Assembly (NCBI GenBank): GCA_025774865.1
Contig: JALGZO010000214.1
Span: 1-11,098, forward strand
DNA: 11,098 bases
From: a bacterium
GTDB taxonomy: Bacteria > ARS69
Direction: 5' to 3'
The notes beneath the pieces were generated by a model, which worked only from the letters and a program-made list of their open reading frames with translations, made no database searches and had not been told where the DNA came from. Position numbers and translations under genes: made by a program. Shown here piece after piece: positions 2,232 through 9,803 of this stretch (positions within the stretch are counted from its first letter, which is position 1; each line of letters begins with the position of its first letter).

Positions 2232-2711
2232 TCACTCGGCGTCGTCGAGCCAGCCGGCGTGCGAAGCCCTCCAGTTCGGATGGTTCGCCCGATATTCCTC
2301 CGCCGCCCGCACCGCGTCGTCGCCTTGAAGAACGCTCTGAACCGCGGATCGGAATGCGAAAGCGCACAACATGTTGGAATAGGCGTCCGTCGGCGTGAAG
2401 TAGAATCCCGTTTCGCCGCCCAACGCGGCCGACCAGCCCGCGAGTTGCTCGCCATCGGTGAACTCGATCCAGACCTCCCGGTCTGACAGGCTCCTCGTCT
2501 GGAACTCCTTGACCTCTTCGTGGTCCGGATCGCCCTTCACCGTCTTGATGAAGAAGACGGCCTTGAGATCCTTCGTCTCGATTCGTAGGTCTTTCTCATC
2601 CGGCTGGCGTACGTGGAAGAAGGTGCATGAGGGCGTGAAGTCGGCGGTCCATCCCTTCGTGACCCGGCCGTCCACGTGACGCGCGGCTACGAGCTTTCCA
2701 ACAATCGACAT
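2232..2711 (-). CDS. Uncharacterised 159-residue protein with two similar beta-type modules
   Basis: ATG at 2711 is chosen over a longer open frame reaching 2903, because GGGAGG sits 6 bases upstream and the upstream extension is arginine-rich, low-quality sequence overlapping the divergent gene. The protein lacks a signal peptide or membrane segment and is probably cytoplasmic. Two related halves are visible. Residues 14-34 read DGRVTKGW..DF...CTFFHV, followed by RIETKDLKAVFFIKTVKG (43-60). Residues 86-107 read DGEQLAGW, then GETGFYFTPTDAYSNML (98-114). The pattern of a short Asp-Gly-(Arg/Glu) strand, a Gly, a Phe-rich strand and an LKAVFF strand recalls a small uncharacterised domain found in many GC-rich bacteria (possibly the one named DUF6982), sometimes linked to PilZ-like or Sm-like beta folds; I recall this and cannot check it. 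The helical tail (about 112-159) ends NWRASHAGWLDDAE. It is divergent from the lipoprotein gene (146-bp gap). The function is unknown. Confidence 0.8.
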   Translation of the reverse strand: MSIVGKLVAARHVDGRVTKGWTADFTPSCTFFHVRQPDEKDLRIETKDLKAVFFIKTVKGDPDHEEVKEFQTRSLSDREVWIEFTDGEQLAGWSAALGGETGFYFTPTDAYSNMLCAFAFRSAVQSVLQGDDAVRAAEEYRANHPNWRASHAGWLDDAE

Positions 2712-2717
2712 CAGAAG

Positions 2718-2723
2718 CCTCCC
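2718..2723 (-). promoter_or_regulatory. Strong Shine-Dalgarno site fixing the start at 2711
   Basis: The minus strand reads GGGAGG, six bases before ATG at 2711. It is the strongest ribosome binding site in the window, together with the one at 2846-2852, and it argues against the much longer frame that begins at 2903. Confidence 0.6.
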
Positions 2724-2742
2724 GACTCGGGGTACGCTAGGA

Positions 2743-2748
2743 ATTATC
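2743..2748 (-). promoter_or_regulatory. Candidate -10 box of the 2232-2711 gene
   Basis: The minus strand reads GATAAT, one mismatch from TATAAT, in an AT-rich island inside GC-rich DNA about 32 bases upstream of ATG 2711. No clear -35 TTGACA is seen at 16-18 bases further upstream, so the call is weak. Confidence 0.3.
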
Positions 2749-2845
2749 GGACCGGGCCGAATCCGCTTTAGCGAGCCCCTCCTGGCCTCCCGCGCAGCAC
2801 CGCAAAAGTCGGTGCCCACAACCACCGATAGGCGGATGGAACCTC

Positions 2846-2852
2846 GGGAGGT
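2846..2852 (+). promoter_or_regulatory. Shine-Dalgarno site of the lipoprotein gene
   Basis: GGGAGGT ends five bases before ATG 2858, fixing that start. Confidence 0.55.
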
Positions 2853-2857
2853 GACGG

Positions 2858-3499
2858 ATGATCGGGAACGGAAGGATCGGTGTGGCCGCCAGCGTGGCGG
2901 CATTGGGGTACTTCGCGGCCTGCTCCTCGTCCACGCTCGTGCAAGTGCCGCCGCGGATGGATTTGACGAAGTACGGCGCCATCGGGATGATCGAGTTCGG
3001 CTCGGGCGAGAAGGAGCTCGGACAGCAGGCGAGCCAGGAGTTCCTCACCGCCCTCCAGGCGGCCCAACCCGGCGTCCCGGTGCTGGAGCTGGGAGACGAG
3101 GCCCGCGTCCTCCAGTCGATCGGCGCCGACGCTCTCGACCCGGAGACGATGCGGTCCATCGGTGAGAAGTACAAGGTGGACGCGGTGATCTTCGGCGTCT
3201 TGGACGCGAAGGCCGTGAAACCGAAGCTGACGATGAGCTCCACGATCGAGTCCTTGAGCGCGAGCGCGGAGATCGAGGGAAATCTCAGCGCGAAGATGTT
3301 CGAAGCCCGTACCGGCGCCACCGTCTGGAGCAGCGTCGCCCGCGACCGGGCGACGGTCGCGGCGCTGACCGTGTCCGGGGAGGGGCTGTCCGGCCTCGGA
3401 GCCGACCACCCCGACGACGCGCACGGGCGGCTCGTGACCGGTCTCGTCTCCTTGGCCACGTCGGACTTTCGTCCGACTTACGTGCGCCGGAAGGACTGA
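2858..3499 (+). CDS. Probable lipoprotein with CsgG/LpoB-like alpha/beta fold
   Basis: The 213-residue product starts with a charged then hydrophobic segment (residues 6-21) ending FAAC, followed by SSS. C22 would be the lipidated cysteine. Phe at -3 is not the commonest lipobox residue, so ordinary secretion is possible. After a proline-containing linker (VPPRMDLTKY), a strand GAIGMIEF (40-47) is followed by a helix (GQQASQEFLTAL), a strand PVLELG, a helix ending RSIGEKYKVDAVIFG and later AKMFEARTGATVWSS. This order resembles the periplasmic 'dynamic response' folds of CsgG, LpoB and the GNA1162/DUF799 lipoproteins: a strand, a helix, then 'VDAVIFG' and 'FEARTGATVW'. The resemblance is by eye only. 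LpoB-type proteins act at the inner face of the outer membrane, often as partners of envelope enzymes or secretion pores, but no partner gene is adjacent. The gene is divergent from the 159-residue gene and followed by 187 bp without a convincing gene. Confidence 0.82.
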   Translation: MIGNGRIGVAASVAALGYFAACSSSTLVQVPPRMDLTKYGAIGMIEFGSGEKELGQQASQEFLTALQAAQPGVPVLELGDEARVLQSIGADALDPETMRSIGEKYKVDAVIFGVLDAKAVKPKLTMSSTIESLSASAEIEGNLSAKMFEARTGATVWSSVARDRATVAALTVSGEGLSGLGADHPDDAHGRLVTGLVSLATSDFRPTYVRRKD

Positions 3500-3523: not shown

Positions 3524-3646
3524 TCACTCGACCGCGCCGGCCGAGCCTGAGAAATAATCGTCGATCTGGGCGATGGTTGCGAAGTCATGCGCTTCGTCGC
3601 GGGCCCACTCCAAGAAAGTCGCGCGCCGGAAGTCGCGGGTGCGGTA
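3524..3646 (-). pseudogene. Possible 3' remnant of a lost gene
   Basis: The minus strand encodes about 40 residues ending at TGA (3524-3526), including DFRRATFLEWARDEAHDF and ATIAQIDDYF. The composition looks like a real protein C-terminus: mixed charged and aromatic residues, and about 82% G or C at third codon positions by hand count. No ATG or GTG exists in frame close by; a TTG would give only 29 residues. Farther upstream the frame becomes the implausible antisense of the 76-residue secreted-peptide gene. I read it as a 5'-truncated remnant, or chance. The parent family is not recognised. Confidence 0.2.
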
Positions 3647-3650
3647 TGCT
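3645..3650 (+). promoter_or_regulatory. Candidate -10 box of the small secreted peptide gene
   Basis: TATGCT lies 36 bases upstream of ATG 3687. It fits the TAnnnT form seen before several genes here, but no -35 TTGACA is evident. Confidence 0.25.
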
Positions 3651-3686
3651 CTTGTCAGCGACCCGCCCCGGTTGGGAAGAGCAGCC

Positions 3687-3917
3687 ATGCTCAAGAGAAC
3701 TCTCCTCCGGACCTTCACCGTAGCTCTCCTGTCCATCATGCTGCTGACGACCGGTGCCGCCGCGAAGAGCGTCGTTCCGGATGCGGTCGACAGGGACAGT
3801 GATGTTCCGCTGTACCTGCAACTCATGGCGTACGTGTCACAGCTCTTGACTGCGGGCGAGGAAGTGCCGAAGTCACTGATCAACAAGATCCAGCAATACT
3901 ACAAGCAGGGTAAATAG
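3687..3917 (+). CDS. Small secreted protein of 76 residues, function unknown
   Basis: ATG 3687 is preferred to an upstream start at 3573 because GGGAAG (3674-3679) precedes it by 7 bases and because it opens directly into a classical signal peptide. The N-terminus is MLKR, followed by a hydrophobic core to residue 22 and an A24-A25-A26 cleavage motif. The predicted mature peptide has only about 50 residues (KSVVPDAVDRDSDVPLYLQL onward). It is probably two helices: LYLQLMAYVSQLL, then a short turn with GEEVP, then KSLINKIQQYYKQGK with a basic end. It contains no cysteine in the mature part. The gene stands alone, between a weak -10 candidate and a clear intrinsic terminator, so it is probably a single-gene transcript. 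I do not recognise the family. A small periplasmic or secreted peptide is the plain reading. Confidence 0.75.
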   Translation: MLKRTLLRTFTVALLSIMLLTTGAAAKSVVPDAVDRDSDVPLYLQLMAYVSQLLTAGEEVPKSLINKIQQYYKQGK

Positions 3918-3922
3918 CGCTC

Positions 3923-3938
3923 GCCGGGAGCCCCCGGC
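3923..3938 (+). repeat. Short GC-rich hairpin between stop codon and terminator
   Basis: GCCGGG, four bases, then CCCGGC form a perfect 6-bp stem six bases after the stop codon of the 76-residue gene and 12 bases before the terminator stem. It may protect the 3' end of the transcript or act as a first pause. Confidence 0.45.
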
Positions 3939-3950
3939 CAAGCCGAAGAG

Positions 3951-3991
3951 CGACCCGACGGCCTCGTGCCGCCGGGTCGTTTCTGTTTCTT
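3951..3991 (+). terminator. Rho-independent terminator of the small secreted peptide gene
   Basis: CGACCCGACGGC (3951-3962) pairs with GCCGCCGGGTCG (3968-3979) across a five-base loop with one mismatch. It is followed by TTTCTGTTTCTT, a T-rich tail rare in this GC-rich window. Stem strength, tail and position 34 bases after a stop codon all fit intrinsic termination. Confidence 0.85.
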
Positions 3992-4049
3992 CGCAGCCGT
4001 TTGGCGAGTCAGCGGGGCGAAGAGCTTCCCTTACGAGGGCGTCGTAGAG

Positions 4050-4055
4050 TAGACT
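4050..4055 (+). promoter_or_regulatory. Candidate -10 box of the GHKL-pseudokinase gene
   Basis: TAGACT lies 90 bases upstream of GTG 4146, in the 228-bp gap after the terminator. The identical hexamer occurs upstream of the beta-helix gene at 5824-5829. No good -35 box is seen. The gap otherwise holds only the two hairpins and the 3' flank. Confidence 0.25.
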
Positions 4056-4145
4056 GCTTGGCCGTTCCTCGAGTCGGACGAGATCCGGAAGCCACACCTC
4101 GGGGCCACCTCGAGACCGTCGACGCAACTGGCCGGAAAGCTCACC

Positions 4146-5726
4146 GTGATTGACCTGATCCAGAGCCGCGAGGCGATGCTCGCCGAGATCGGGGCCACCG
4201 AGACCGCGTTCACCAACCGCATCGAGGACCCCCACGATCCAGCGTTCCTCCACCTGGACCAGACGTCCGTCGCCGTTTGCCGTCCCTGGGAGGAGATCCT
4301 GTCCCGGCTCCGAGTGCCCCTCGCCCGGCGCTTCGCGGATGTACCTCCGGAGCGGTTCATCCGGGACATTGAACGACCTCTGAAGATGGGACTCGGCAAC
4401 GCGTTCAAGCGAGGCAACCAGCACGATCGGGACAAGCGGATCTCGGTGGAGGCCGTCGTCACCGAGACGGGCGCGCTGATCGCGATCTCGAACGACGGGC
4501 CGGGCTTCGACGTCGAGGACACGCTGCGCCGGTTCCGCGCCAGCGAGAGCTACTTCACGAACAAGGGAGGCGGCTTCAAGGCCTTCGAGCGGGCGGGATC
4601 GGTGGTCAGCTACGCCGACGGCGGCCGCACGCTGCTCATTCGGTTTCTGCGGGGATCGGAGTCGCCGGACCCGGGGCTCGCGCTCGCCGAGGACTACATG
4701 GCGAGCGTCTTCAGTAAGCTCGGAATGCTCAGGAAGCACGGACATACGCTGGAGTCCTGCCAGGTCGACGTGCTGGATCGAGCCGTGCCCGGCCGACCGG
4801 AGTTGAGGTACGCCCTCCAGATTCGCGAGAGCGGGATTGAGCTGCCAAAGATGATTCTCATCGGGAGACTCCTGTCGGAGTCTGCGGCCCGCCGCGAGCA
4901 CTGGGTTGCCAGACAGCTCTACAAGGGCTCCTTCAAGGCCGGGGACGGCCTCCTCGTTCCGAAACCCCTGGAGGTGTTCGACCGTCACCCCCGGCTGATG
5001 CTGTACCGGTTCGACCCCGGCCATGATCTGCGCGAGCACCTCGAAGCGCTCCGCGACCCCGAGCCGGTGGCCGAGGCAATGAGGGCGGTGGCGTTGGGGC
5101 TTCGCGCCCTGCACCGGAGCGGGATCTCCGTCGACTTCGACGAGATACCGCGCCGCGCGCGCGGCCGGCGTAAGAGAACCCAGGAGGGAATCGTCGCCGC
5201 GCTGTCCGACGTTCTTCCGGACCGGGTCCCCCGCGCGCGGCGATTCTTCGAGGCCCTCGAGCAGCGGGCCGCGCGGGTCGACGAGCCTGCCGAGCCGGTG
5301 CCGATCCACGGCTCGTTCGGCGGGGAATGCATCCGGCGGGCCGAGGATCGTCGGGGCGCCGAGCGGCTCTACGTCTACCGGTTCGACGAGTGCCGGCGCT
5401 CTCACCCCGGCTTCGATGTCGGTGGACTGATCGCGGACCTCTCGCGGTGGGAGAGCGAGTCGACGGCGAGGAGCGATCTCTTTCGCGCTGCCCGCGACGT
5501 CTTTCTGAAGAGCTACTTCGCCGGAGACTCCCCCGAGTGGCTCGAGGCACTTCCGTTCTTCACCTCCCGCGCGAATCTCGACCGCCTCGGGCAAGCTCTC
5601 GAACGTCGCCGCGAAGGGGCCGTTTCCGAGATCGATACGCTGCTGGGGCAGTGCGAACGGAGTCTGGAGGAGCCGGCCGGCACGCACCTCGATCTGCGCA
5701 AAGAAAGGACACCAACGCACGAATAG
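4146..5726 (+). CDS. Fusion of RsbW-like GHKL ATPase domain and APH-like pseudokinase
   Basis: The 526-residue soluble product starts at GTG 4146, six bases after GGAAAG (4134-4139); an in-frame TAG at 4050 limits any extension. Residues about 75-168 match anti-sigma-factor-type GHKL domains (HATPase_c_2): N-box GLGNAFKRGN with N85, G1 box ISNDGPGFD (N116, D117, G118, G120), a G2-like GGGFKAF (141-147) and the closing strand GGRTLLIRF. The glutamate expected four residues before the N-box Asn is M81. Residues about 225-435 resemble aminoglycoside/choline-kinase-type phosphotransferases: MILIGRLL, VPKPLEVF, LMLYRFDPG, a helix with LGLRALHRSGI, then PIHGSFGGECI and VYRFDE ... HPGFDVGGLIADL. In active enzymes the first strand carries Lys, here R241, and the catalytic motif is HGD, here H388-G389-S390. 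D414 is kept. The protein may therefore bind nucleotide in a regulatory role without ordinary phosphotransfer. The C-terminal 90 residues are helical. The partner is unknown; no sigma factor or anti-anti-sigma gene is nearby. Confidence 0.88.
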   Translation: MIDLIQSREAMLAEIGATETAFTNRIEDPHDPAFLHLDQTSVAVCRPWEEILSRLRVPLARRFADVPPERFIRDIERPLKMGLGNAFKRGNQHDRDKRISVEAVVTETGALIAISNDGPGFDVEDTLRRFRASESYFTNKGGGFKAFERAGSVVSYADGGRTLLIRFLRGSESPDPGLALAEDYMASVFSKLGMLRKHGHTLESCQVDVLDRAVPGRPELRYALQIRESGIELPKMILIGRLLSESAARREHWVARQLYKGSFKAGDGLLVPKPLEVFDRHPRLMLYRFDPGHDLREHLEALRDPEPVAEAMRAVALGLRALHRSGISVDFDEIPRRARGRRKRTQEGIVAALSDVLPDRVPRARRFFEALEQRAARVDEPAEPVPIHGSFGGECIRRAEDRRGAERLYVYRFDECRRSHPGFDVGGLIADLSRWESESTARSDLFRAARDVFLKSYFAGDSPEWLEALPFFTSRANLDRLGQALERRREGAVSEIDTLLGQCERSLEEPAGTHLDLRKERTPTHE

Positions 5727-5739
5727 CTCCCAATGCCGC

Positions 5740-5786
5740 CGGAAGCTGCCTTTTCTCCACGATGCGCTCTCGGCATCTCCTTCCGG
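5740..5786 (+). repeat. Nested inverted repeats in the gap after the fusion gene
   Basis: CCGGAAG (5740-5746) is the exact complement of CTTCCGG (5780-5786). Inside lies a second pair, GATGC (5761-5765) and GCATC (5773-5777). The outer arms are uneven in spacing and no T-tract follows, so it is not a standard terminator; it could be a leader or 3'-end RNA fold, or chance. Confidence 0.25.
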
Positions 5787-5823
5787 ATCGCCGCCGCCCA
5801 CCCCGGACGCCAATCGCGTGTGC

Positions 5824-5829: not shown

Positions 5830-5869
5830 TGATGCTCCCGTAGTGCAGATGGATGCGCCAGCCCCGGCC

Positions 5870-5873
5870 GGAG
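5870..5873 (+). promoter_or_regulatory. Ribosome binding site choosing ATG 5880 over ATG 5853
   Basis: GGAG ends six bases before ATG 5880. The upstream in-frame ATG at 5853 has no purine-rich site and would only add nine residues (MRQPRPEPH) before the basic start of the signal peptide. Confidence 0.5.
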
Positions 5874-5879
5874 CCTCAC

Positions 5880-8273
5880 ATGCCGACTCGCCGCCGGGTC
5901 TCGCCGTGGCCGTTCCTCCTCCCCGCCGCAGCCTTTTCGCTTCTTGCGCTGGCTCATGCCGCTTCGGCCGCTCAGCTCGACGTCCCGGGCGATGCGGCCA
6001 CCATTCAGGCCGCAATCGACCTCGCCGCCGGCGGTGACGTCGTGGAGATCGCGAACGGGATCTGGACCGGTCCCGGCAACCGAGACGTCGTCGTCGCGAA
6101 GAGCATCGTGATCCGTTCGGCGTCCGGGGATCCCGATCTCTGCGTCGTGGACTGCCAAGGAGCCGGTCGAGGTTTCGTCTTCCAGGGACTCGCCAGCGCG
6201 GCCCGACTCGAATCGATCACGATCACGAACGGAAGTGCCCCGCTCGGCGGTGGCATCCTGATCACGGGTGTCTCCCCTACCCTCGAGAACTGTCGCGTGC
6301 TCGGCAACGAGGCGACCGGCACCGGAGGGGGCGGCATTGCGCTGGAGTCGTCGGCCAGCCCGCGGCTCGTCGGGTGCATGATCTCGGGCAACGTCGTGAG
6401 TGGGATCAACGGCGGAGCGGGTATCTGGAATGTCGGGGGAAGCCCGACGCTCATCAACTGCATCCTCGTAGGAAACACGACGTCGGGGGCCGGTATCGTC
6501 GGCGGCGCGATGTACACCACCCAGGGAGGAGTTCCGGTTCTCGCGAACTGCGCTCTCTACGGAAACTCGGCCTACGACGGCTCGGGGCTCTACTGCTCAT
6601 TCACGAGCAACCCGGACATCGTCAACTCCATCGTGTGGGGCAACGATCCCGGGACCTCGGGACTCGAAATCGTCGTCAAGTTCAGCGCCGTCGCGTCGGC
6701 GAGCTACTGTGACATCGACGGGGGATTCACCGGGACCGGCAACCTGGACGCAAATCCGATCTTCGCGGACGCGGACGGTCCCGACGACGTGCTCGGCACC
6801 GCCGATGATGATCTCAGCCTCGGACGCTTCTCTCCCTGCACCGACGCGGGGAACAATGCGGCCGCCGCTCTCGCCGGAGTCACGGAGGATCAGGCGGGAC
6901 AGCCACGTTTCGCGAACGATCTCGGGATCCCCGACACCGGGAACGGCGCGAACCCGGTCGTGGACATCGGCCCGTTCGAGCGTCAGTTGGAGTCAGTCCC
7001 CTTCGAATTTCGCGTTCCGTCGGAAGTCGCCACGATTCAGGCGGCCGTGGCGGCGGCCGGCCCCGGCGACGAGGTGTTGCTCGCGGACGGGACGCACTCC
7101 GGGCCGGGGAACTTCGACATCCTGTGCGATCGGAACGTGGTGATCCGTTCCGAGAGCGGCGACCCTTCCGCGTGCGTGATCGATTGCCAGGGCGCGGGAC
7201 GGGCGTTCTCGTTCGTCGGGGTCGGGACTTCCACGCGGCTCGAAGGGGTGACGCTGAAGAACGGGCAGGCGACCGAAGGTGGGGCGCTGTATCTCTCGGC
7301 CGCGTCCCCTTCGCTCACCAATTGCCGGATCGTCTCCAACACCGCGACCGGAGCCGGCGGAGGCGGCCTCTATTGTGACTACGAAAGCTCGCCCACTCTC
7401 ACGAACTGCGTCATCCGCGACAACCTGGCCAGCGGAACGTACGGGGGCGGGCTGTACAACAAGCGAAGCAGCAGTCCGGTCCTGACGAACTGCGTCTTCG
7501 CCGGCAACACCACGACCGGCGTGGGCACGACGGGCGGAGCCATCTACAACTGGACGAGCAATCCGTCCTTGACCAACTGCTCGATCGGCGGCAACTCATC
7601 GTACGACGCACCGGCGATGTACAGCGCCTTCGATTCTTTCCCCGAGCTCCTGAACTGCGTGGTCTGGGGCAACGTGTCCACCGTAGCCGGCGGGACGCCC
7701 CTGTTGGACAAGTTCTCCTCCATTACCTACGTGGGCTACTGCGACATCGAGGGGGGAGCACCAGGACCTGCCAACCTGCAGCAGGATCCACTCTTCCTCG
7801 ATTCGGAGCTGCGGGTGCCCAGCTGGTCGCCGTGCGTCGACGCCGGAAACAACACCTACGTGACCACGCTCACCGATCTCGACGGGGGGCCCCGCATCTG
7901 GGATGGCGACGACGATAGCATCGCCGTGGTCGACATGGGAGCGCACGAGTTCTCCGTCGACTCGCCGACCAGTGTCTTGTCCGGACCCTCGATCGCGAGC
8001 ACGACACTCATGGCGCCGCGGCCCAACCCATCACGCACGAGCTCTCAGCTCGCGTTCCAGATCCTACGCGCCGGCGCGGTCTCGCTCTCCGTGTTCGACG
8101 TGGCCGGACGAAGAGTCCGGACGCTGGCCGAAGGGGTTCGCCCGGCCGGCTCCCACGTCGTGACCTGGGACGGAACGAACGACGCCGGCATCCCGGTCGC
8201 CGCCGGGGCGTACATCGTGCGACTCGCGACGGACCACACGGCTGTCTCGCGCAAGATTCACCGCGTGCGCTGA
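5880..8273 (+). CDS. Secreted parallel beta-helix protein with duplicated helix and FlgD-like C-terminal domain
   Basis: The 797-residue product begins with MPTRRR, a hydrophobic stretch and an A-S-A cleavage motif near residue 30. Two long homologous units follow, residues about 34-370 and 378-692, offset by 344 residues. Each opens with a (V)ATIQAA(I/V) ... GDEV-type segment, then IVIRS.SGDP, CQGAGR, many short right-handed-helix rungs with SP.L.NC and GN..., a GYCDI/SYCDI turn, and closes with SPC.DAGNN and a VDIGPFE or VDMGAHEF ending. This resembles the pectate-lyase-type beta-helix proteins with the closing element often labelled 'choice-of-anchor Q'. Residues about 713-797 form a FlgD-like Ig module (PNPSRTSSQ, FDVAGRRVRTL, WDGTNDAGIPVAAGAYIVRL), which ends many exported proteins of this bacterial group and may act as an anchoring or sorting domain. 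Surface location is likely. No catalytic residues could be identified, so adhesion or glycan binding is only a guess. It faces the 8295-9743 gene tail-to-tail with 21 bp between. Confidence 0.93.
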   Translation: MPTRRRVSPWPFLLPAAAFSLLALAHAASAAQLDVPGDAATIQAAIDLAAGGDVVEIANGIWTGPGNRDVVVAKSIVIRSASGDPDLCVVDCQGAGRGFVFQGLASAARLESITITNGSAPLGGGILITGVSPTLENCRVLGNEATGTGGGGIALESSASPRLVGCMISGNVVSGINGGAGIWNVGGSPTLINCILVGNTTSGAGIVGGAMYTTQGGVPVLANCALYGNSAYDGSGLYCSFTSNPDIVNSIVWGNDPGTSGLEIVVKFSAVASASYCDIDGGFTGTGNLDANPIFADADGPDDVLGTADDDLSLGRFSPCTDAGNNAAAALAGVTEDQAGQPRFANDLGIPDTGNGANPVVDIGPFERQLESVPFEFRVPSEVATIQAAVAAAGPGDEVLLADGTHSGPGNFDILCDRNVVIRSESGDPSACVIDCQGAGRAFSFVGVGTSTRLEGVTLKNGQATEGGALYLSAASPSLTNCRIVSNTATGAGGGGLYCDYESSPTLTNCVIRDNLASGTYGGGLYNKRSSSPVLTNCVFAGNTTTGVGTTGGAIYNWTSNPSLTNCSIGGNSSYDAPAMYSAFDSFPELLNCVVWGNVSTVAGGTPLLDKFSSITYVGYCDIEGGAPGPANLQQDPLFLDSELRVPSWSPCVDAGNNTYVTTLTDLDGGPRIWDGDDDSIAVVDMGAHEFSVDSPTSVLSGPSIASTTLMAPRPNPSRTSSQLAFQILRAGAVSLSVFDVAGRRVRTLAEGVRPAGSHVVTWDGTNDAGIPVAAGAYIVRLATDHTAVSRKIHRVR
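5979..7955 (+). repeat. Tandem duplication of a beta-helix domain within one gene
   Basis: Unit 1 (about 5979-6990) and unit 2 (about 7011-7955) align across their whole length at the protein level with a starting offset of 1032 bases. Shared landmarks are ATIQAA, IRS.SGDP, DCQGAGR, GGG rungs, SYD, VWGN, YCDI.GG, SPC.DAGNN and the (M/I)G.(F/H)E ending. Unit 1 carries an insertion of dates-and-decimals-type acidic sequence (ADADGPDDVLGTADDDLSLG) absent from unit 2. DNA identity is low enough that this is an old duplication. Confidence 0.85.
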
Positions 8274-8294: not shown

Positions 8295-9743
8295 TCAACG
8301 CGTGAGCACGACCCGGCGGGTCGCCGTCCGATCACCGGCGGCGACCTTCAGAAAGTAGACGCCGGAGGGGCTCGGGCGTCCTCCGTCCGTTCGACCATCC
8401 CAGATCAACCGATGCACGCCGGCGGGACGAGCGCCGCGAGCCAGACGACGTACGAGGCGACCCCCGACATCGACCACATCGACCGTGACGGGAGTTCGCT
8501 CGGCGACCGAGAGGCTGAAGGACACCCCGGACCGAGTCGGGTTCGGAAAGATCGCCCCGAGAAGGAACTGCTCCGGAGCGGACGGCCGATCACCCGCGCT
8601 CGTGGCGACGACGCACTCGCCGAATCCGAGATCGAGCACGAGCGGGTTGGAGGTCGAGAAGAAGTCGTCATTGAGATACGCGGTGCGAAACTCTCCCGGG
8701 CATTCGATCACGAAGGCGGAGTCCGCCGGCGATTTCCACATACAGCGGTAGTAGAGGTTGCGATACGTGCCGGCCGGAAAGGTCTCGCGAGTCGTGAAGA
8801 CCCCGTCGCTGGCGACGTCGTCCGGCGGGACGCCGTCGTCCCGGAGGCGTCGCAAGGGCGGATCGTCCCAGGACAACGGAAGCTCGCTGCCCGTGACCCC
8901 CAGGGAGTCCCCCGCCCCGAAGGGAGGGTCGGGCGCGACGGCCTGAACTCGAAAGACGACGTCCATGTCCCGGACCGTGAAATCCGGGGGAGCTTCGTCG
9001 TTCCACCACAAATCGAGCGTGTCCCGACCGTCCGGATGGGCGGCGAGATCGATCGTGACCATGCGGTCGGCCGGTAGAGGCTCCAGCTCGCTGCAAAGGT
9101 GCGAGAACCTGAACTCGAGATCCCGCGTCTCGGGGCCCCCGGTCGCGCTCGAGCAGGGCGGGCTGAAGAACACCTTCTGGACCCAGGTCGAGTCGCCCTC
9201 CGCGTCGTCCAGCTCGACGTCACAGATCGGAGACCAGGTGAGGGGTTCGAGGCTTCCCTCGACCGCGAACGAGTGGGGCGGCGCGTCGTGGCTCTTCATG
9301 TGTTCGCCCATGCGCCCCTTCACGAGCAGTTGCTCCAGGTAGAACGTGAATACGTTGCCCACGCCGTCGTCGACCATCTCGTTGCCCGCGAGGTCCACGA
9401 CCTTGACCACCCGGACCTGTTCACAGGTTCCGTATCCGTAGAACCCACTTGTGAATCGGATCTGGGTACGGTCCGGCGGAAACCAGAAGCCCTGGAACGC
9501 CGTCTCGCCCGTGTGCTCGTCGGTGTAGTTCGAGGGGGAGATCGCGTGAAACCAGTCGACCGGCTCACTGAAAACGAACTCCAGACATCCAGTCTCTTCC
9601 GCGTTCGCAGGATCATAAATGACGCGGGCCGAGGCGATCGTGGGCGGAATCGTGTCGACGCCGGCCGGAAGCGAGAGTCCGTCCCTCCCCTCCGAAGGTC
9701 CCGACGTCGTGAGAATGCCCACGACGAGAGCGGCCCACGGCAT
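8295..9743 (-). CDS. Secreted multi-domain protein with FlgD-like C-terminal Ig domain
   Basis: ATG 9743 is chosen because GGAG lies seven bases upstream and a signal peptide follows at once (MPWAALVVGILTTSG). A GTG at 9797 would add 18 residues but would lie at the predicted transcription start. The 482-residue product then has an Ig-like segment at about 33-140 (PPTIASARVIYDP, LEFVFSEPVDWF, IRFTSGFYGYG, VVDLAGN), resembling the bacterial 'SbsA/Big_5' domains that describe changes across a boundary. A central part (about 150-280) holds several cysteines and is not recognised. Near 295-335, RLRDDGVPPDDVASDGVFTT and FPAGTYRNLYYRC resemble the 'choice-of-anchor X' element. The last 82 residues are a FlgD-like Ig module (FPNPTRSG, VDVVDVGGRLVRRL, GVHRLIWDGRTDGGRPSPSG, YFLKV). 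It is probably exported and surface-held; no enzymatic motif is seen. It lies 109 bp downstream of the exporter gene on the same strand and converges on the beta-helix gene. Confidence 0.88.
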   Translation of the reverse strand: MPWAALVVGILTTSGPSEGRDGLSLPAGVDTIPPTIASARVIYDPANAEETGCLEFVFSEPVDWFHAISPSNYTDEHTGETAFQGFWFPPDRTQIRFTSGFYGYGTCEQVRVVKVVDLAGNEMVDDGVGNVFTFYLEQLLVKGRMGEHMKSHDAPPHSFAVEGSLEPLTWSPICDVELDDAEGDSTWVQKVFFSPPCSSATGGPETRDLEFRFSHLCSELEPLPADRMVTIDLAAHPDGRDTLDLWWNDEAPPDFTVRDMDVVFRVQAVAPDPPFGAGDSLGVTGSELPLSWDDPPLRRLRDDGVPPDDVASDGVFTTRETFPAGTYRNLYYRCMWKSPADSAFVIECPGEFRTAYLNDDFFSTSNPLVLDLGFGECVVATSAGDRPSAPEQFLLGAIFPNPTRSGVSFSLSVAERTPVTVDVVDVGGRLVRRLARGARPAGVHRLIWDGRTDGGRPSPSGVYFLKVAAGDRTATRRVVLTR

Positions 9744-9803
9744 GATGCGACTCCGGGAAGCAGGTGGAGGATGGGTGGCCGCGGGAGAGCGGCCCACGGC
9801 CCC

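Follow-up and report, generated by a model that had tools for sequence, protein, structure and literature searches.

GHKL and APH rank among the largest phosphotransfer folds of bacteria. Among RsbW homologues, M. smegmatis RsbW1 and RsbW3 are without kinase activity; one of them is an anti-sigma factor, and the other acts by heterodimerising with it (PMC7693655, PMC10950880). In the spore-kinase family, the pseudokinase signature of choline-kinase-type (CAK) proteins is that catalytic residues are lost while those that hold the fold are kept (PMC2860764). Here we describe a gene that joins the two folds in a single chain, with catalytic residues absent from both. It lies in the window, an 11,098-nucleotide stretch covering positions 1–11,098 of contig JALGZO010000214.1 (assembly GCA_025774865.1, GTDB lineage ARS69), at positions 4146–5726 of the plus strand, and encodes a probable GHKL-APH double pseudoenzyme of 526 aa with a GTG start. 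The original prediction held this architecture to be undescribed, and we found no GHKL-APH fusion described in open-licence papers.

Gene, homologues and genomic neighbourhood

The 4146–5726 ORF has GC contents of 0.71, 0.47 and 0.84 at the first, second and third codon positions, respectively, and the neighbouring genes are alike. An antisense ORF of 646 aa (3873–5813) has the mirror image of this pattern and was rejected as a high-GC artefact. The likeness to the neighbours and the mirror-imaged antisense ORF mark 4146–5726 as coding. Two full-length homologues, L067 and L068, are collinear with the window protein from the GTG onwards (VIDL, VIDL and VIEL in the window protein, L067 and L068, respectively), which supports the GTG start, and a candidate ribosome-binding site, GGAAAG (4134–4139, plus strand), is placed 6 nt before it. 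The translation contains the motifs originally read from it, namely N85, NDGPGFD (residues 116–122), HGSFGGECI (388–396) and YRFDE (411–415), as well as the residues M81, R241 and S390. Other genes of the window have 64–67% homologues in family-mates; hence the contig belongs to the host genome, and contamination as its source was ruled out.

Both homologues were recovered from one Myxococcales MAG, DT_70, by searching with aligned APH relatives. L067 (JABSQW010000412) has 38% identity to the window protein (E 2e-91) and L068 (JABSQW010000001) has 36% (E 5e-63). With 35.8% identity to each other, the two are as distant mutually as from the window protein, so their duplication is old. The fraction of positions identical in all three proteins was highest, at 0.30–0.31, in the GHKL domain and in the HG..C/DVGG core (residues 383–435), compared with 0.09 (9%) in the variable linker between the two halves (residues 169–202; 4650–4751, plus strand).

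The family is rare, with three known members in two genomes of different phyla. About 1,170 genomes were searched (1,172 counts, in which some genomes are counted repeatedly), and the fusion was found only in the window's genome and in the Myxococcales MAG. No fusion homologue was detected in a first scan of genome contigs, in 290 domain-wide genomes, in a further 386 genomes, or in viral contigs, phages and plasmids. Among 377 Myxococcota genomes and 90 genomes of the MAG's class it was present in the MAG itself only, and it was absent from four family-mates of the host. Four matches at E <= 1e-4 in the 290-genome scan were rejected as ordinary RsbW-like or REC-GHKL proteins that match the GHKL half only. 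The window protein matched no family in PADLOC, PHROGs or NCBIfam.

The genes before the fusion gene include a zf-PARP-like gene (1694–2221; PARP-type zinc finger in two stretches, E 1.4e-22), a DUF6982 gene (2232–2903, minus strand), a lipoprotein-like ORF (2858–3499) and a small secreted-looking ORF (3573–3917), and the gene is followed by one for a secreted beta-helix/FlgD_ig protein (5853–8273). The bacterial zf-PARP protein has 65–67% homologues in two family-mates. The secreted proteins at 5853–8273 and 8295–9797 have FlgD_ig-type C-terminal tails, a feature present at about 100–150 or more sites in each genome of the host's family. A 475-aa plus-strand ORF at 120–1547 has mirror-imaged codon-position GC, so the real gene there probably runs on the minus strand through the region.

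In the MAG, L067 sits near a contig end, with a short TAT-like ORF and a PAPS-reductase-like gene upstream of it; L068 precedes a methyltransferase/DUF5666 gene by 17 bp and is oriented divergently to an M14 peptidase. A survey of the three fusion loci for a constant partner gene, as the original prediction had proposed, found no shared neighbour, nor was a STAS or sigma gene recognised beside any of the three copies.

Tandem APH-like loci, with two or more APH genes, recur in unrelated genomes (L079, G000:C514; L078, G290:C367; L081, G028:C120; L069, Rubrobacter). Three of these four are beside an ABC exporter, and two of the three also have a GT4 glycosyltransferase. The Myxococcales tandem-APH cluster additionally has inositol-phosphate-synthase-like and HprK-like genes. 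At L078 (2090–10397, minus strand), in the same genome as the two homologous fusion copies, four APH-like proteins read HGT, HGS, HGA and HGA with DFD intact and are possible partial pseudokinases. At another locus (L080/L032, G000:C318), an asparagine-synthetase-like (lasso-cyclase-like) gene adjoins two tandem APH genes, possibly as part of a RiPP cluster.

The closest relative of the C-terminal domain in its own genome is the APH at G000:C514, which adjoins an ABC exporter and a GT4 gene, and the Myxococcales genome has a similar cluster, in which the APHs are the HGT/HGS/HGA variants. The fusion protein might therefore be an accessory of glycosyltransferase, ABC exporter and tandem-APH loci, whose APH group its C-terminal domain descends from, for example one that regulates an active APH without itself being catalytic. 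We consider this very unlikely, because none of the three fusion genes adjoins such a cluster, and the four family-mates have many other APH-like proteins yet lack the fusion.

The N-terminal GHKL domain

The first 60 residues (4146–4325, plus strand), in which 28% of positions are identical in all three proteins (IGA, DPxD and LD), gave no family match and no HisKA-type match in a Pfam scan. Sensor histidine kinases carry a DHp domain with the phospho-accepting His before the GHKL domain, and this is absent from the window protein.

Residues 61–168 (4326–4649, plus strand) were confirmed as a SpoIIAB/RsbW-like GHKL fold by Pfam, profile, hhalign and structure matches. Pfam HATPase_c_2 gave 20.3 bits (E 5.7e-4) for the window protein, below the cut-off of 27.4, and was above it in L067 and L068, with 28.2 and 34.4 bits, respectively. 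The best solved chains for a profile of the three sequences were Bacillus SpoIIAB (E 0.0013), and profile-profile comparison with RsbW-like proteins in hhalign gave Prob 97.5. Residues from about 19 to 170 of the structure model aligned to UsfX, RsbW and SpoIIAB with Z 11–12 and rmsd 2–3 (VIA-align).

In the N-box (residues 79–91; 4380–4418, plus strand), the Glu position, 81, is occupied by M, K and K in the window protein, L067 and L068, respectively, and N85 is Asn in all three. In ordinary GHKL relatives aligned to the same profile, the N-box Glu is present wherever the position is aligned. In the G1 box, NDGPGFD (116–122; 4491–4511, plus strand), the Asp of D-x-G-x-G that contacts adenine is Asn116 in the window copy and Asp in both L067 and L068. 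The G2/lid region, YFTNKGGGFKAF (136–147; 4551–4586, plus strand), has a G-G/S-G-F pattern conserved in the three, and G118, G120, F121, D122, G141, G143 and F144 are identical throughout. L067 and L068 keep all GHKL nucleotide determinants but the general base, and the window copy is also without the Asp at 116. This replacement would weaken nucleotide binding, so the window copy may be nucleotide-free. Binding of ATP without the N-box Glu is common among histidine kinases, and for this reason the loss of the Glu alone does not define the function.

SpoIIAB, RsbW and UsfX are the best solved relatives of the N-terminal half, and kinase-less RsbW homologues act as partner switches. The GHKL half could likewise work alone in a plain anti-sigma/anti-anti-sigma partner switch, with the pseudo-APH half as a ligand-free dimerisation or docking extension. 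This is unlikely, given that the APH core (residues 383–435) is conserved as well as the GHKL half and that the neighbouring genes include no recognised sigma or STAS gene.

In two further proteins, L003 and L006, an RsbW-like GHKL domain comes after a receiver-like domain; judged by the GHKL match, both proteins are structurally related to Leptospira LvrC-type regulators.

The C-terminal APH/CAK domain

Residues 203–475 (4752–5570, plus strand) were confirmed as an APH/CAK-type fold by Pfam, hhalign and structure matches. Pfam APH gave 25.1 bits (E 1.8e-5; cut-off 23.2) for residues 246–440 scanned alone, and 35.3 bits, also above the cut-off, for L067. Comparison with active APH relatives in hhalign gave Prob 98.4 (E 4.8e-15, 234 columns), and the lanthipeptide kinase chain 9dk1 was a weak match to the three-sequence profile (E 0.67). 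An AlphaFold model from the single sequence was unusable (mean pLDDT 37.7); a second model from five sequences, including two APH-only sequences from a Rubrobacter locus, was of moderate confidence, with a mean pLDDT of 60.9. A search of viral contigs for additional GHKL and APH sequences, meant to enlarge the alignment, yielded none. Model residues from about 175 to 516 aligned with glucosamine kinase, 5-methylthioribose kinase and maltokinase at a modest Z of about 10 and rmsd 4–8. The top Foldseek ranks were a mixture of APH(4), maltokinase, YtaA and SpoIIAB, none below E 0.001; hence the fold claim is based on the sequence profiles and the VIA-align Z. Because pLDDT was below 50 in the catalytic-loop region (379–419) of the five-sequence model, no pocket geometry is claimed. 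The GHKL and APH architecture of the original prediction is thus borne out: Pfam, hhalign, structure matches and homologues agree, the N-terminal half of the model matches RsbW/SpoIIAB, and the C-terminal half matches APH/CAK kinases.

The position of the strand Lys is occupied by R241 (4866–4868, plus strand), which is Arg in all three members. The catalytic-loop remnant, HGSFGGEC (388–395; 5307–5330, plus strand), follows the pattern HGxxGxxC, in which position 390, the HGD Asp, is S, A and Q in the window protein, L067 and L068, respectively, and position 395, normally Asn/Gln in the catalytic loop, is an invariant Cys. In RFDECRRSHPGFD (412–424; 5379–5417, plus strand), the metal-binding Asp position, 412, reads R, R and H. 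Every APH relative aligned to the profile has the first Asp of DFD. Most of these relatives also have an intact HGD, which is HGT, HGS or HGA in the tandem-APH cluster of the same Myxococcales MAG, so its loss recurs within this APH group. The structural residues His323, His388 and Asp424 do not vary among the three members.

Catalytic residues had been predicted to be missing from both halves, and this also holds for L067 and L068, neither of which has the Glu, the Lys or the HGD Asp. The residue-by-residue claims fared less evenly. R241, originally taken as a sign of inactivity, is weak evidence for it, since the strand Lys varies among CAK kinases: ordinary relatives have K or Q, the closest HGD-bearing relative in the window's genome has Gln, and Lys to Arg is a common change, with Arg in choline kinase (PMC2860764). 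Of the three replacements originally pointed out, R241 is invariant, and M81 and S390 are not; the conserved trait at the N-box and HGD is the absence of Glu and Asp rather than any particular replacement. Three replaced residues, N116, C395 and R412, go beyond the earlier list, and Arg412 and Cys395, not Arg241, are the strongest catalytic losses; with the replacements seen in L067 and L068 they are the better evidence.

The occurrence of the same losses in full-length homologues from another phylum, at ~36–39% identity, together with the retained fold residues, marks them as a family trait rather than the decay of one copy. Degeneration of a once active bifunctional kinase, with the window copy as a pseudogene in progress, would fit the loss of the adenine Asp (N116) in the window copy only and the very sparse membership. 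It is nevertheless highly improbable, as the 526-codon ORF is intact with normal codon-position GC, the losses are common to homologues in another phylum, and genome searches found no active full-length ancestor.

Cys395, Arg241, His388 and Asp424 are each invariant across the three proteins, so the former active site remains constrained. This would be expected if the C-terminal domain were an enzyme with other chemistry, transferring AMP or another group or using Cys395 as a nucleophile, with the GHKL domain as a regulatory nucleotide sensor. SelO and SidJ, which reportedly carry out AMPylation and glutamylation, respectively, on a pseudokinase fold, are precedents, and in view of their chemistry we infer, rather than assert, that the window protein is not an enzyme. 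We regard other chemistry as decidedly unlikely here: the R/R/H replacement of the metal-binding Asp leaves no obvious Mg-nucleotide site, SelO retains its metal ligands, and Cys395 could be structural.

Proposed function and comparison with known systems

The window protein is probably a signalling or scaffold protein rather than a phosphate-moving enzyme, since relatives in another phylum share the same losses. From the CAK pseudokinase signature and the binding-only RsbW homologues, we judge a kinase-dead, ligand- or nucleotide-gated protein-binding switch to be the most likely function, with moderate confidence. The N-terminal half would be a SpoIIAB/RsbW-type GHKL domain minus its general base, which in the wider family probably still binds nucleotide, though perhaps not in the window copy, and which would bind a protein partner through its RsbW-type surface. 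The C-terminal half would be an APH-fold pseudokinase with a remodelled pocket (Arg241, HGxxGxxC and Arg412) that would accommodate a ligand or partner but transfer no phosphate. When one half is occupied by its ligand, an allosteric signal to the other would control partner binding. Counting against such a switch are the small number of sequences, three, the lack of a constant neighbour and of any recognised STAS or sigma gene beside the copies, and N116 in the window copy. More tentatively, the three proteins could represent a new signalling family in which two unrelated nucleotide-binding folds, each made catalytically dead by conserved substitutions, are fused, each sensing a different ligand and jointly gating a protein partner.

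A fusion with both folds inactivated is a natural test of what the pockets do without catalysis. Should binding of ATP or ADP persist in the GHKL half, that half would be a sensor of energy state with no kinase output. For recognising further members, the HGxxGxxC motif offers a sharp signature.

With the SpoIIAB/RsbW anti-sigma factor kinases, the fusion protein has in common the fold, the N-box Asn and the G1/G2 glycines. It differs from them in the absence of the N-box Glu (three of three members) and of the adenine Asp (window copy), in its second kinase-type fold, and in having no recognised sigma or STAS neighbour. The kinase-less RsbW homologues (M. smegmatis RsbW1 and RsbW3, Mtb UsfX) resemble its GHKL half, and UsfX is among the top structure matches, but these proteins are short and single-domain, with no APH half. 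CAK kinases (5-methylthioribose kinase, maltokinase, glucosamine kinase, APH(4) and LxmK) have the same fold and the same H...HG...FD...DVG layout, whereas in the fusion the HGD Asp, the loop Asn/Gln and the metal Asp are replaced and the strand Lys is Arg. BSK pseudokinases such as YutH have the CAK fold with the catalytic Asp lost and the structural His and Asp kept (PMC2860764), and the fusion has the same pattern, with H323 and D424 identical in all three members. BSK proteins are single-domain Firmicutes spore proteins without a GHKL half, and no specific sequence similarity between them and the fusion was found; the fusion members belong to a small, probably FCB-like phylum and to a Myxococcales MAG. 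Both halves are well-known folds, and pseudo-forms of either one are already known on their own; what is new, as far as the open-licence literature extends, is the presence of two dead kinase-type folds in one chain.
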